Below, one piece after another: positions 9,615 through 47,083 of a DNA stretch of 64,000 bases. Origin of the DNA: Candidatus Vecturithrix granuli (GTDB taxonomy: Bacteria; Moduliflexota; Moduliflexia; Moduliflexales; Moduliflexaceae); assembly GCA_000739535.1 (NCBI GenBank), contig DF820464.1, positions 137,281 to 201,280 on the forward strand, given 5' to 3'. Both the position numbers and the translations under genes were made by a program. The stretch's first letter is position 1; each line of letters starts with the position of its first letter. The notes under the pieces are model-generated. The model was not told the DNA's origin, ran no database searches, and saw only the letters and a program-made list of their open reading frames with translations.

Positions 9615-10003
9615 CGGTTTTTTTGGTAATGGTTAAACGGGAAGCGACATCCGCTCGTTGAGCGAAGTCGAAACGAGTCTGGACTTGTTCCCTTCGACTC
9701 CGCTCAGGAAACGGTATTACTTAGCGTGAGTTCGGGATAAGAAAAACGCCGTAAAAGTAAAAGTCCCGAAGGGACGGGATATAGTAGCCCAGGGTGTCAG
9801 CCCTGGGGTCGAAAATCCGACGTGTGTGCCCTCCCCTCTCCGCATTCCGCCGCCGCTCGCGGCGGCGGAATGCGGAGAGGGGAGGGGGCAAACCGCTTTT
9901 TGTCCCAGGGCTGACACCCTGGGCTACCAGATTCCGCCCCGTTGGGGCTTAAAAGCTTATCCCGAACTCACGTTGCTTACCATTTAACCACTACCGTTTT
10001 TTG
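9615..10003. mobile_element. Composite repeat element with diverged MITE ends enclosing a nested palindromic element
   Basis: The outer ends, near 9618-9640 and 9976-10000, are diverged inverted copies of the GGTAGTGGTTAAATGGTAAG-like end seen at 5015-5136. Inside are CTTCGACTCCGCTCAGG-type words (9655-9710) and then the nested element 9725-9972. No ORF with coding features is present. This unit is most of the gene-free stretch 9592-10337; the remainder (10004-10337) holds a small inverted repeat (10094-10105 with 10162-10173) and the putative operators. Confidence 0.5.
9725..9972. mobile_element. Nested palindromic MITE-like element (three concentric inverted repeats)
   Basis: The 17-bp perfect terminal repeats are CGTGAGTTCGGGATAAG at 9725-9741 and its complement at 9956-9972. 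Inside them a second perfect pair, 24 bp, lies at 9784-9807 and 9904-9927. Innermost is a very G+C-rich palindrome of about 26-bp arms (9829-9854 with 9861-9886). The whole can fold into one long interrupted hairpin. It has no coding capacity. Confidence 0.8.
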
Positions 10004-42585: not shown

Positions 42586-43833
42586 ATGAAACGTTTGTTC
42601 CATCTGAAATCGTTTTTCCCCCAGGTTTGTTTAATGGTGGGGGGAGTGGTACTGGGGATCTCGCTCGCCAAACTCTGGTATCTCCAGCGCGTGGTGAATC
42701 ATGAGTGGCGTGGGGAACTGGTGTTCAGTCAATGGAACTATGGCGCTCTCATGCTCTGTGATGTGGCCATGGTGCTGATCCTCTGGGTGATGCTTTGGAG
42801 ACGCTATCAGATTACACTGGTCCGACCGATGGGACAGCTTGCCGAGATGATAACACGTCTGCGAGGTCATCGAAGCCAGGTCAGCACGGAGATCTTGCGC
42901 GGGTCATGTGAAGACATACAGGAATTGGCGCGGGCGACAAGCGCGCTGGTAAACCAGGTCAACGCGCTGATCACGCACGGGCATGAAGTAGGGCAACGCC
43001 TGCTTGAGACGTCACATAGTGCCTTTGCCGCCTCAAAACATCAATCCACGCTCCTGTCGGAGTACGTTACCGCCTCCGACGTGATGGCGAGGAATCTGCG
43101 CGACCTGGTGATGACTGCCCAGCAGATCAGCGCCGATGGGCAGGCGGCGGTGGAGGTGGCTAGTCGCACTATGGAGTTGGCCGAACAGGGGCAGCAGGCC
43201 GTGATGCTTGTAGCGCAGAGTATAGATGATATCCGCCAGGCGTTTCAACGAAATTCTGACAAGATTCTGGCGCTGGGAAGACACTCGGAACAGATTCATG
43301 ATGTCGCCGCTGCCATTGATCGGATGATTGAAGATACCAAGCTGATTGCGTTTAATGCGACTATTGAGGCGGCCCGCGCCAGGAATGAAGGGCGGGGATT
43401 TGGCGTGGTGGCAATGGAAATGAAACGCTTAGCTGATGAAGTTTGCGATTCCACGGAAGATATGAAAGAGGTGATTCACGAGATTCAGAGCGCGTCCTCG
43501 CTGTTGGTGCTGGGCACGGAAGAAGACATGAACACGGTCTCGCACGGTGCCCGGCTGGCGGAAGATGCCGGCGAAGTGCTTGCGCAAATTTTGGCGATGG
43601 CGACACTCACAACCGAATCGGTGCAGCGCATGGCGTCGGCCACACACCAGCACATCCACGCCAGCGAGCAGGTGTTGCATGCGGTGGACACGGCCAATCA
43701 GTCCACCCGACGCTTTGCGCAGGAATCAACACAAATTGCGGTCGCCGCTGCTGAATTGAGTCTGCTGGCGGAGGGCCTACGACAACTTCTGGTCAGGTTT
43801 GGAGGGGAGGGTGTATGGGAACAGAGCAGTTGA
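42586..43833 (+). CDS. Second methyl-accepting chemotaxis protein, minimal sensor region
   Basis: A 415-aa receptor with two close membrane segments (about 13-32 and 49-67) and only about 15 residues between them, so it has no room for a periplasmic ligand domain. The cytoplasmic tip 'EDTKLIAFNATIEAARARNE' and 'GFGVVAMEMKRLADEVCDS' are present but diverge from the usual QTNLLALNA form. It may sense inside the membrane or signal with the first receptor. It ends 19 bases inside cheA. Confidence 0.88.
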   Translation: MKRLFHLKSFFPQVCLMVGGVVLGISLAKLWYLQRVVNHEWRGELVFSQWNYGALMLCDVAMVLILWVMLWRRYQITLVRPMGQLAEMITRLRGHRSQVSTEILRGSCEDIQELARATSALVNQVNALITHGHEVGQRLLETSHSAFAASKHQSTLLSEYVTASDVMARNLRDLVMTAQQISADGQAAVEVASRTMELAEQGQQAVMLVAQSIDDIRQAFQRNSDKILALGRHSEQIHDVAAAIDRMIEDTKLIAFNATIEAARARNEGRGFGVVAMEMKRLADEVCDSTEDMKEVIHEIQSASSLLVLGTEEDMNTVSHGARLAEDAGEVLAQILAMATLTTESVQRMASATHQHIHASEQVLHAVDTANQSTRRFAQESTQIAVAAAELSLLAEGLRQLLVRFGGEGVWEQSS

Positions 43834-46214
43834 TTCGGGAATTTCTCGCCGAAGCAGAGGAACACTTCCTCACTTTAGAGCCGAATCTGTTGCGTTTAGA
43901 AAAAGACCCTTCCAATCGTGAACTGATCAATGAGATTTTTCTGACCACGCACAGCATGAAGGGGACAGCGGCGTATGTGGGGTTAGCCCATATCAGCAAC
44001 TTTACCCATGCGCTAGAATCGCTGCTGGAGCCGTTACGACAAGGCCGCGCGCACCCCTCGCCAGCGCTCATTGATATCCTGCTGCACGGCGTCGATATGT
44101 TAAAAGACCTGGTGCAGCATGTGGCTCAGGGCAAAACCCCTCCCGATACGTCAGAGATCGTCGCACAGTTGAATGCCTGGCAACAGGATCTGGCGCAGCA
44201 GACGCAGGGTGCCCCTTCTCAGTCGGTTACGTCGTCAGGCGCTATTCCGGAGGCCTCTGCCCATGCGCCTGACCGGCAGGTTGATCTACATGGACTTCTG
44301 CTTGAACGGGAGGATTGTGAGATTTTTGTAGAGATTAGTCGCCAACAACTCGAGTTGATGCGCCTGACGCTTGAGCACTTGCGCGCTGGTTTGCAAGAGG
44401 TCCCGCTGGATACCGAGCGGTTGCGACAGCAACTCGCGGCGATAGTCAAGGCCTTCCGAAAAATCCAATCCTCGGCGGCGATGCTGAAGGTGAAGCAACT
44501 GGATGCGGCGTTGGCCGAGCATGCTCGCGAGTTTGTGACATTGGAAACCGCGGATTCTCTCCTGACCACAGAGGAGATACACACGATTGCCCGGATGCTT
44601 CAAAGACTTGAGGCAATCATTGCTAGCGTTTCTGCCTCGAGCCCAGAAGAACCTTCTTCCCCGCCTTTACCGCCGCCAGAGGACACCGTTTCTCTGTCAC
44701 GCGCGGTGGAATGGTCACGAGGACGCTATACCTTACGCGTCGAGGCTGAGCGCGTCGACTATTTACTGAATCTGGTGGGCGAACTCGTGATCAGTCGCGC
44801 CAGGTTGGTCCAAATTGGCCGGGAACTCAAGACACTATACGAGGATCTGCGTACTGGGGACCTGATATGGCGGCAGGGATCTGCGCTACAACGCAAAAAA
44901 GAGGCGCGCCTGTTCAAACAGGTTAAAGAAAGCCTGGATGAAACCACGGTCGAGTTAGGGCGATTGACGAATCAGATGCAGGAAGCTACGATGCACATCA
45001 GGATGGTGCCAATCAGTCAGGTGGTGAGTCACTTTCCGCGCATGGTACGCGATCTGGCGAGGCAGGCTGGAAAAGAGGTGGAGATCGTGATCTCTGGCGC
45101 AGATACGGAACTGGATAAAACCATGATTGATATGATCGGAGATCCCTTAATTCATCTCATTCGCAATGCGATTGATCACGGCATCGAAACGCCGGACGAG
45201 CGCGTCAAACGAGGCAAAGCGCGCCAGGGTACGATCAAGCTTTCGGCGTCGTATGAAGGGAATCAGGTGATGATTGCGGTGCAGGATGATGGGCAGGGAC
45301 TTGATTTGGAGCGTATTAAGCAGAAAGCGGTGCAGCAGGGAGTGATTCGTGCCCGAGATGCGGAGACCTTGTCAGAGCGCGAGGCGATGGCACTGATCTT
45401 CGCGAGCGGGTTGAGTACGGTGGAGTCGGTTAGCAGTCTGTCGGGACGTGGCGTGGGACTGAACGTGGTTAAACGTTATTTGGAGAAACTCAGCGGTGCG
45501 ATTGAACTGGAATCGATTGTTGGAAAGGGCTGCGCTTTTCTGATCAAATTGCCCTTAACTCTGGCGATTATTCCGGCGCTGATGGTCAGAGTAGGCGCGG
45601 AATTGTTTGCGATTCCGCTGATGGCGGTGGAAGAAGCGATCAGGTTTGGTCCACACGATATCCACACCATCGAAGCGCAGCAGGTGATGCGGTTACGCGA
45701 CCGGATGATCCCGGTGTTTGATCTGGCGGATTTGCTGGGAAGGCCGGTGTGTGGTTCTTCCCAGAGTGGTGATGAGGCAGGTACGACGCCAATGCATTTT
45801 TCTGAAGCAGAGGGGCAAACCGATGAGCAAGCGGAAAAATATTACGGGGTGATTGTGAGCGATGGTGTACGAGAAATTGGCGTGCGGGTTGACGCCCTGT
45901 GCGGCGAGGGGGATATAGTGATCAAGTCGCTCAGGCATGACTTGTTGGCAGTGGAAGGCATTTCCGGGGCGTCGATTCGCGGCGATGGGCAAGTCTCACT
46001 CGTGATCGACACAGCGTCGCTCATCACTCTGGCGATTACCCGCGTAAAACAGCAGCACCGCGCCCGTTCCGAGGGCGATCGCCCTTTCGAAATCGGACGC
46101 GATGAGCATCATACATTCGAGGTTACGGAAGATGACCCCAGATCCGAATCTGAAGCAGAGGGATCGTGTTCAGATCCGTGCGGATGGTCAGCCAGCCGCT
46201 CAGCACGCCTGTAG
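43815..46214 (+). CDS. cheA: Chemotaxis histidine kinase CheA
   Basis: A 799-aa kinase. Hpt domain 1 has the phospho-His at 46 ('TTHSMKGTAAYVGLAHI'). A second Hpt-like helical bundle (about 155-270, 'AFRKIQSSAAMLKVKQLDAA') lacks the His. Then come a dimerisation helix pair, HATPase with N-box 'DPLIHLIRNAIDHGIE' and 'SLSGRGVGLNVVKRYLEKL', and a CheW-like domain ('VGAELFAIPLMAVEEAI'). No receiver domain is fused, unlike ChpA or FrzE, so the stand-alone CheY-like protein is the likely target. The last 45 residues are of low complexity and overlap, on the opposite strand, the 3' end of the DUF1573-like gene. SD GGAGGGGAGG. Confidence 0.93.
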   Translation: MGTEQLIREFLAEAEEHFLTLEPNLLRLEKDPSNRELINEIFLTTHSMKGTAAYVGLAHISNFTHALESLLEPLRQGRAHPSPALIDILLHGVDMLKDLVQHVAQGKTPPDTSEIVAQLNAWQQDLAQQTQGAPSQSVTSSGAIPEASAHAPDRQVDLHGLLLEREDCEIFVEISRQQLELMRLTLEHLRAGLQEVPLDTERLRQQLAAIVKAFRKIQSSAAMLKVKQLDAALAEHAREFVTLETADSLLTTEEIHTIARMLQRLEAIIASVSASSPEEPSSPPLPPPEDTVSLSRAVEWSRGRYTLRVEAERVDYLLNLVGELVISRARLVQIGRELKTLYEDLRTGDLIWRQGSALQRKKEARLFKQVKESLDETTVELGRLTNQMQEATMHIRMVPISQVVSHFPRMVRDLARQAGKEVEIVISGADTELDKTMIDMIGDPLIHLIRNAIDHGIETPDERVKRGKARQGTIKLSASYEGNQVMIAVQDDGQGLDLERIKQKAVQQGVIRARDAETLSEREAMALIFASGLSTVESVSSLSGRGVGLNVVKRYLEKLSGAIELESIVGKGCAFLIKLPLTLAIIPALMVRVGAELFAIPLMAVEEAIRFGPHDIHTIEAQQVMRLRDRMIPVFDLADLLGRPVCGSSQSGDEAGTTPMHFSEAEGQTDEQAEKYYGVIVSDGVREIGVRVDALCGEGDIVIKSLRHDLLAVEGISGASIRGDGQVSLVIDTASLITLAITRVKQQHRARSEGDRPFEIGRDEHHTFEVTEDDPRSESEAEGSCSDPCGWSASRSARL

Positions 46215-46809
46215 GAGCATCAGGCAACAATTTGCCGGTGACGGTCACCTCGCCGTTGGGAGGAATCGTCAGGGCTGAGATAGCAAGATCGACAGAGGAA
46301 TTGGATGAGTGAATCTCGCTGAGGTGCACGGGGTTGTCAGTATAGTTTTTAATCACCAATGAGGCAGACTCTGATTGTTTTGGATCGAAACGCAATAAAT
46401 TCGGTTTCGCTTCCAGATCAACCAGGACCTTCGCCGTGACAAGCAGGGTGATGACCTCATTCACTGGATCGTTCGTGTGCACCGTCACGGTGTGACGAAG
46501 GGTCTGTTGTCGGTAACCTGAACGGACAGTGACCCCGATTTTTCCCTCCCCACCGGGAGGCACTTCGTCGCCAGACAGCAACGTGGTAGTGCAGCCTCAG
46601 CCGCCTTTGGCTTGCTGAATGCGCAGCACGCTGTCGCCGGTATTCTTGAGCACAAAGGTATGCGTCAGGGTCTGGTTGGCCTGCACCTCGCCAAAATCAT
46701 AGGTTGGCCCCCCCACAATCTCCAGCCGAGGGGCAGCGTGGACACTCTGTCCTTCGCCAACCAAAAAAAATACCCACAACATCCCGATTAAAATACTTGA
46801 TTTTTTCAT
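46123..46809 (-). CDS. Candidate selenoprotein: DUF1573-like exported protein with in-frame UGA (Sec71)
   Basis: Read through one TGA (46599-46597), the frame encodes 228 aa. A signal peptide (MKKSSILIGMLW... 'VHAAP') precedes a first Ig-like DUF1573 domain ('YDFGEVQANQTLTHTFVLKN', 'GDSVLRIQQAKGG-U-GCTTTLL', 'EVPPGGEGKIGVTV') and a second beta-rich domain. The UGA falls where the family normally has the first Cys of a CGCT motif. Immediately after it the mRNA can form a SECIS-like hairpin. Both flanking frames are intact and in the same phase, with no other stop. UGA is a normal stop elsewhere here (for example the MFS and RpiR genes). A nonsense mutation or sequencing error remains possible. 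AGGAG lies upstream of ATG 46809. Function of the family: unknown, periplasmic. Confidence 0.72.
46560..46592 (-). promoter_or_regulatory. Putative bacterial SECIS element
   Basis: On the minus-strand mRNA, starting four bases after the UGA: lower stem GCACU/AGUGC (46592-46588 with 46564-46560), internal loop ACCA/A, upper stem CGUUGC/GCGACG (46583-46578 with 46571-46566, one G-U pair), apical loop UGUCUG. The loop begins 19 nt after the UGA and has G in its second position; both fit the general rules for bacterial SECIS elements. Confidence 0.62.
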
Positions 46810-47083
46810 AGATGTTTGCTACTCCTGTTTGAAAGTAATCATACCCTGGAACCCAGGCATGTTGCATTCCAGAGTGGGGGTAAAACATGCGCGTCAATAC
46901 TGTGATGAATACACGTTGATTATACGAAGAAAAAAGTCAACAGATTATGTGAAAAAATATGAATATCCAACAAAAAAATTTGTTGAAGAAACGTTTTTGA
47001 AGATGACATTTGATTGACGGAAAGACAAGAGCTGCAAAAAGGCATTTCTACTATCACAGAATTATCTTTGAAAGGAGTACGTC

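Follow-up and report, generated by a model that had tools for sequence, protein, structure and literature searches.

Gene structure and the in-frame UGA

The locus described here raises the question of whether a UGA triplet that interrupts an otherwise open gene for a DUF1573-like protein is a stop codon or a codon for selenocysteine (Sec). The gene lies in a window of 64,000 nucleotides from Candidatus Vecturithrix granuli, the whole stretch of DNA that was analysed. The features considered are listed below.

46123..46809, minus strand: putative DUF1573 / OS_HP2-related selenoprotein gene, 228 amino acids with Sec71, open in frame except for one TGA
46597..46599, minus strand: in-frame UGA, putative Sec codon at residue 71, first position of a U-G-C motif, the TGA being kept in homologues
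46560..46596, minus strand: bacterial SECIS-like hairpin, upper stem CGUUGCU/GGCGACG, loop GUCU (or UGUCUG), from folding, a positional test and covariation
46735..46809, minus strand: signal peptide-like NH2-terminus MKKSSILIGMLWVFFLVGEGQSVHA, read from the sequence, with low pLDDT at residues 1–20
46822..46826, minus strand: Shine-Dalgarno-like AGGAG, 5' of the ATG of the DUF1573 gene, from the sequence

The minus-strand frame runs from an ATG at 46809 to a TAA at 46123, and its sole interruption is the TGA at 46597–46599, which places residue 71 in the context QQAKGG-U-GCTTTLL. The description in the initial annotation of two halves in one frame, separated by a single TGA and with unbroken family sequence across it, was thus confirmed: the Pfam domain DUF1573 (PF07610) matched residues 36–128, across the UGA, with an E value of 9.6e-24 and 83.7 bits compared with a gathering cut-off of 26.1. 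With the UGA taken as a stop, the gene is truncated at 70 residues or just a 152-residue downstream open reading frame (ORF) is left. Given that UGA terminates 8 of the 37 window ORFs of at least 200 codons, it is a normal stop codon in the genes of the window, as had also been stated.

The DUF1573 gene overlaps tail to tail with a cheA-like gene on the plus strand (43815–46214), the two sharing 92 bases (window 46123–46214). Its neighbours are chemotaxis and envelope genes, without redox genes.

Conservation of the UGA among homologues

Among 40 related genomes, we found an orthologue from a different genus within the family that is 49% identical over its full length and has TGA at the same residue, as well as a distant homologue (32% identity) with TGA at the residue homologous to 71. 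The host genome itself encodes a paralogue (43% identity) that also carries TGA at this residue. The orthologue shows the same gene order as the window, with chemotaxis genes, the last of which is cheA-like, the DUF1573 gene, a divergent polysaccharide deacetylase gene, a YraN-like gene and genes for two AMP-binding ligases; apart from those of DUF1573 and the deacetylase, these names were read from the sequence.

A profile search was extended to 385 genomes, 91 of which had a DUF1573 match, and every stop-flagged match was read. Sixteen genomes contained a total of 19 DUF1573 genes with an internal stop, which was always TGA and always at the same residue, where the CGC motif has its first Cys. 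Neither TAA nor TAG occurred as an internal stop in these 19 genes, and the other flagged stops (TGA, TAG or TAA) were located at the ends of matches. TGA at the residue homologous to 71 was seen in L018, L029, L019 and 15 further genes; beyond the orthologue and the paralogue, it is present in 16 genes of 14 additional genomes. Other homologues have CGC at the motif, with Cys instead of UGA. The alignment at residue 71 that the initial annotation had proposed therefore showed either Cys or an in-frame UGA, in keeping with its view that Cys is the normal residue at this site, and random stops in homologues, which it had named as evidence against a selenoprotein, were not encountered in the 19 genes. 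Given that the internal stop is always TGA at one residue in 19 genes from 16 genomes, this comparison of sequences indicates that the UGA at residue 71 is not due to chance.

Sec at the DUF1573 CGC motif appears to be widespread, with 19 genes in 16 of the 91 sampled genomes with a DUF1573 match, a proportion that is not an unbiased frequency given that the profile query held four Sec rows and was biased towards Sec forms. Other such genes are therefore probably mis-annotated too. In a quick and poorly resolved tree, the Sec rows were clustered, with 4 changes compared with about 11 when shuffled.

These homologues also bear on whether the TGA could be a mistake of sequencing or assembly, in place of TGC or TGT. 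One base change would suffice, in an assembly that is estimated to be 93.8% complete with 10.75% contamination. However, the orthologue from another genus, the paralogue and 16 homologues encoded elsewhere have the TGA as well, and the hairpin downstream of it is conserved. Because independent homologues carry the TGA, an error is in practice refuted, and we give it next to no chance.

A hairpin downstream of the UGA

The initial annotation had described a hairpin downstream of the UGA, and folding confirmed it: a spacer of 19 nt after the UGA is followed by the loop UGUCUG, the second position of which is G, and the hairpin has its centre about 21–22 nt past the UGA. We take it to be like the SECIS element of E. 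coli fdhF, in that both are short stem-loops that follow soon after the UGA and have a G near the start of the apical loop, although its sequence is not the same. Considered alone, the window hairpin is mildly unusual (z of –1.45; z of –2.0 and p of 0.047 in a second test), and Rfam yielded no SECIS match either at the window gene or at the three Sec homologues closest to it.

When the 19 Sec genes were averaged, hairpin stability was greatest about 22 nt past the UGA, with a mean energy of –7.2 kcal/mol, compared with –3.1 kcal/mol at the same position in synonymous recodings and –1.8 kcal/mol in 21 Cys homologues. In this positional test of the 19 Sec genes, the difference from the controls was absent a few nucleotides either side of the 22-nt centre. 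The best hairpin was nearer to the UGA, at 15, in L019, L068 and L091. Folding energy over the whole region separated Sec from Cys genes weakly (p of 0.026, five Cys genes being counted twice), whereas the separation was clear in the position-specific test.

Covariation was analysed in 13 Sec genes. Given that these genes were picked by eye from the 19 and that the stem was derived from the same 13, the count leans towards the stem, with 71% of cells in the seven-pair stem being paired compared with at most 50.5% when the stem was slid. The stem covariation score for the same genes was 0.454 compared with 0.247 after shuffling, and 0 of 500 shuffles, which ignore kinship among the genes, scored as high. 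The alignment is inexact for a few rows at the three bases before the TGA, which are outside the stem. These comparisons point to selection for a hairpin about 22 nt after the UGA in Sec genes, a conclusion drawn from the gene set and not from the window hairpin alone.

Sec machinery in the genome

The initial annotation had recommended a search for the Sec genes, and had counted the absence of both selB and tRNA-Sec from a complete genome as evidence against a selenoprotein. The genome contains tRNA-Sec(UCA), selA (630 bits) and selD (383 bits), the last of these having an in-frame UGA itself. In contrast, selB was not found in the assembly either by profile or with the protein of a relative, the matches resembling other translational GTPases and all being below cut-off. 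Only the selB half of the stated absence was thus observed, and in an incomplete assembly. Given that this assembly is 93.8% complete, a gap in it is the simplest reading of the absence of selB. SelB scored above cut-off in a relative of the same family, and it was present in 14 of 16 Sec-DUF1573 genomes compared with 30 of 65 Cys-only genomes (Fisher p of 0.004); the Sec-DUF1573 genomes without a SelB match are the host genome and G193.

The failure to find selB would also be compatible with a decaying pseudogene, in which the UGA is a true stop and a 70-residue peptide is left. Such decay is nevertheless very unlikely, given that neither the frame nor the domain is broken before or after the UGA, that the orthologue shares 49% identity over its full length and the gene order is conserved, and that the only internal stop in 19 genes is TGA at the residue 71 site.

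The genome's selD is a Sec gene itself (L044:1393-2934, minus strand; TAAGUAAKMDP), and one in-frame TGA each was reported for selD of G001, G002 and G003. The genome also contains a tRNA-Sec-like tRNA with the anticodon GCA and U73 (L002:1498-1594, minus strand; G000:C16:163011-163105) that resembles the described selC* tRNA-Cys. It clusters with genes, named from the sequence, for a NifS-like aminotransferase, a small DUF3343-like ORF and a YedF-like protein, together with the Sec-containing selD.

A tRNA of this type beside selD suggests that the UGA might be read as cysteine or another residue, by a selC*-type tRNA-Cys or under a reassigned code. Systems with selC* tRNA-Cys have been described, some of them with UCA anticodons and a second SelB (PMC7609411). 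The anticodon GCA, however, pairs with UGC and UGU, not with UGA, and the genome has tRNA-Sec(UCA). Moreover, the tRNA-Sec-like GCA tRNA was not found beside selD in the relative G001, and the termination of 8 of 37 long window ORFs by UGA argues against reassignment as well. We therefore regard decoding as cysteine or another residue as highly improbable.

Because the UGA is conserved, the hairpin statistics are favourable and Sec genes are present in the genome, the selenoprotein reading of the initial annotation is well supported, and Sec insertion at the UGA of the window gene, as a member of the known DUF1573/UGC kind, is highly likely. The UGA at residue 71 would be decoded as Sec by SelA, SelD, tRNA-Sec(UCA) and SelB, with the hairpin just downstream directing this decoding, and the gene would encode a DUF1573 selenoprotein with a UGC motif that is related to OS_HP2 and predicted to be exported. 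The UGA, its conservation, the hairpin and the genome's selA, selD and tRNA-Sec were observed directly, whereas Sec insertion into the window protein, its export and its biochemical role are inferred.

Relation to known selenoproteins

The protein had been put forward as a candidate new selenoprotein, of a family in which none had been described. Neither claim holds: 'DUF1573 domain-containing protein, motif UGC' appears in the lists of prokaryotic selenoproteins given by two reviews (PMC9312934; PMC13188914), and NCBIfam includes NF041425, 'OS_HP2 family (seleno)protein'. For the DUF1573 UGC selenoprotein, both reviews cite the work of Zhang & Gladyshev 2007 on the Olavius algarvensis symbiont. 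The window gene would share with it, as listed in the reviews, the Pfam domain (PF07610) and a U-G-C motif whose first position is Sec, but it comes from another lineage. Given that DUF1573 is already in selenoprotein lists and NCBIfam, the window gene is very probably a further member of this listed family.

The first domain of the window protein (residues 35–128) aligned to positions 4–97 of the 98-position NF041425 model with an E value of 1.1e-25, but its 89.8 bits did not reach the curated cut-off of 100. Individual scans of nine further Sec homologues gave 68–92 bits, with none of the nine reaching 100, and all 33 aligned homologues matched the model at an E value of 0.001. The score below the cut-off led us to file the window protein as a putative DUF1573 UGC selenoprotein related to OS_HP2 rather than as a strict member of NF041425.

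Structure model and possible role

The structure model obtained with AlphaFold2 was confident (pLDDT of 93). It showed two tandem Ig/ASH-like (PapD-like) domains, with residues 71–73 lying between strands 62–69 and 73–77. Sec71 and Cys73 would thus be positioned at a loop between two strands of the first of the two tandem domains. Fold searches of the PDB returned solely the common Ig/ASH/PapD-like fold. PDB 2qsv, a protein of unknown function from Porphyromonas gingivalis, resembled the model in its Ig-like domains (Z of 12.6 over 193 residues) but differed in domain arrangement (rmsd of 12.9 across both domains), and the ASH (PapD-like) domains of HYDIN and CEP192 are Ig-like domains of the same kind. 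These matches to PapD-like/ASH domains and to 2qsv carry no functional information.

The choice of Sec marks the U-G-C motif as a putative reactive site of DUF1573, and the pair of residues may serve extracytoplasmic selenol/thiol redox chemistry or metalloid handling. Given that the paralogue is located downstream of genes for ArsF-family thioredoxin-like proteins, an ArsG/DsbD_2-like permease and a small, weakly ArsD-like protein, the protein may plausibly act outside the cytoplasm in selenol/thiol redox or metalloid chemistry, a role to which we assign slightly less than even chances. More speculative, and rather doubtful as a whole, is the generalization that Sec-DUF1573 proteins form a widespread and under-recorded extracytoplasmic class. 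In some bacteria this class would be linked to operons for metalloids or thiol redox that are ArsF/ArsG/DsbD-like, and U-G-C would bind metalloids or serve as a redox site.

Immediately 5' of the DUF1573-U paralogue lies an ORF of 98 residues (L105:7133-7429, plus strand; G000:C19) with two adjacent in-frame TGA codons (VIKGUUNAVK), and its homologue in G084 (L114, 45% identity) has the same tandem pair. The ORF scored 23.5 bits with NF041239, 'CC/Se motif family (seleno)protein', a weak match given the cut-off of 40, and is a candidate for a protein in which two Sec residues stand side by side. Downstream of the paralogue locus, at approximately L105:9065-10261, there is a long stretch of N. 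In the window itself, two matches to the Acido-Lenti-1 RNA (RF01687) were detected about 100 bases apart on opposite strands, at 9762–9807 (minus) and 9904–9949 (plus).
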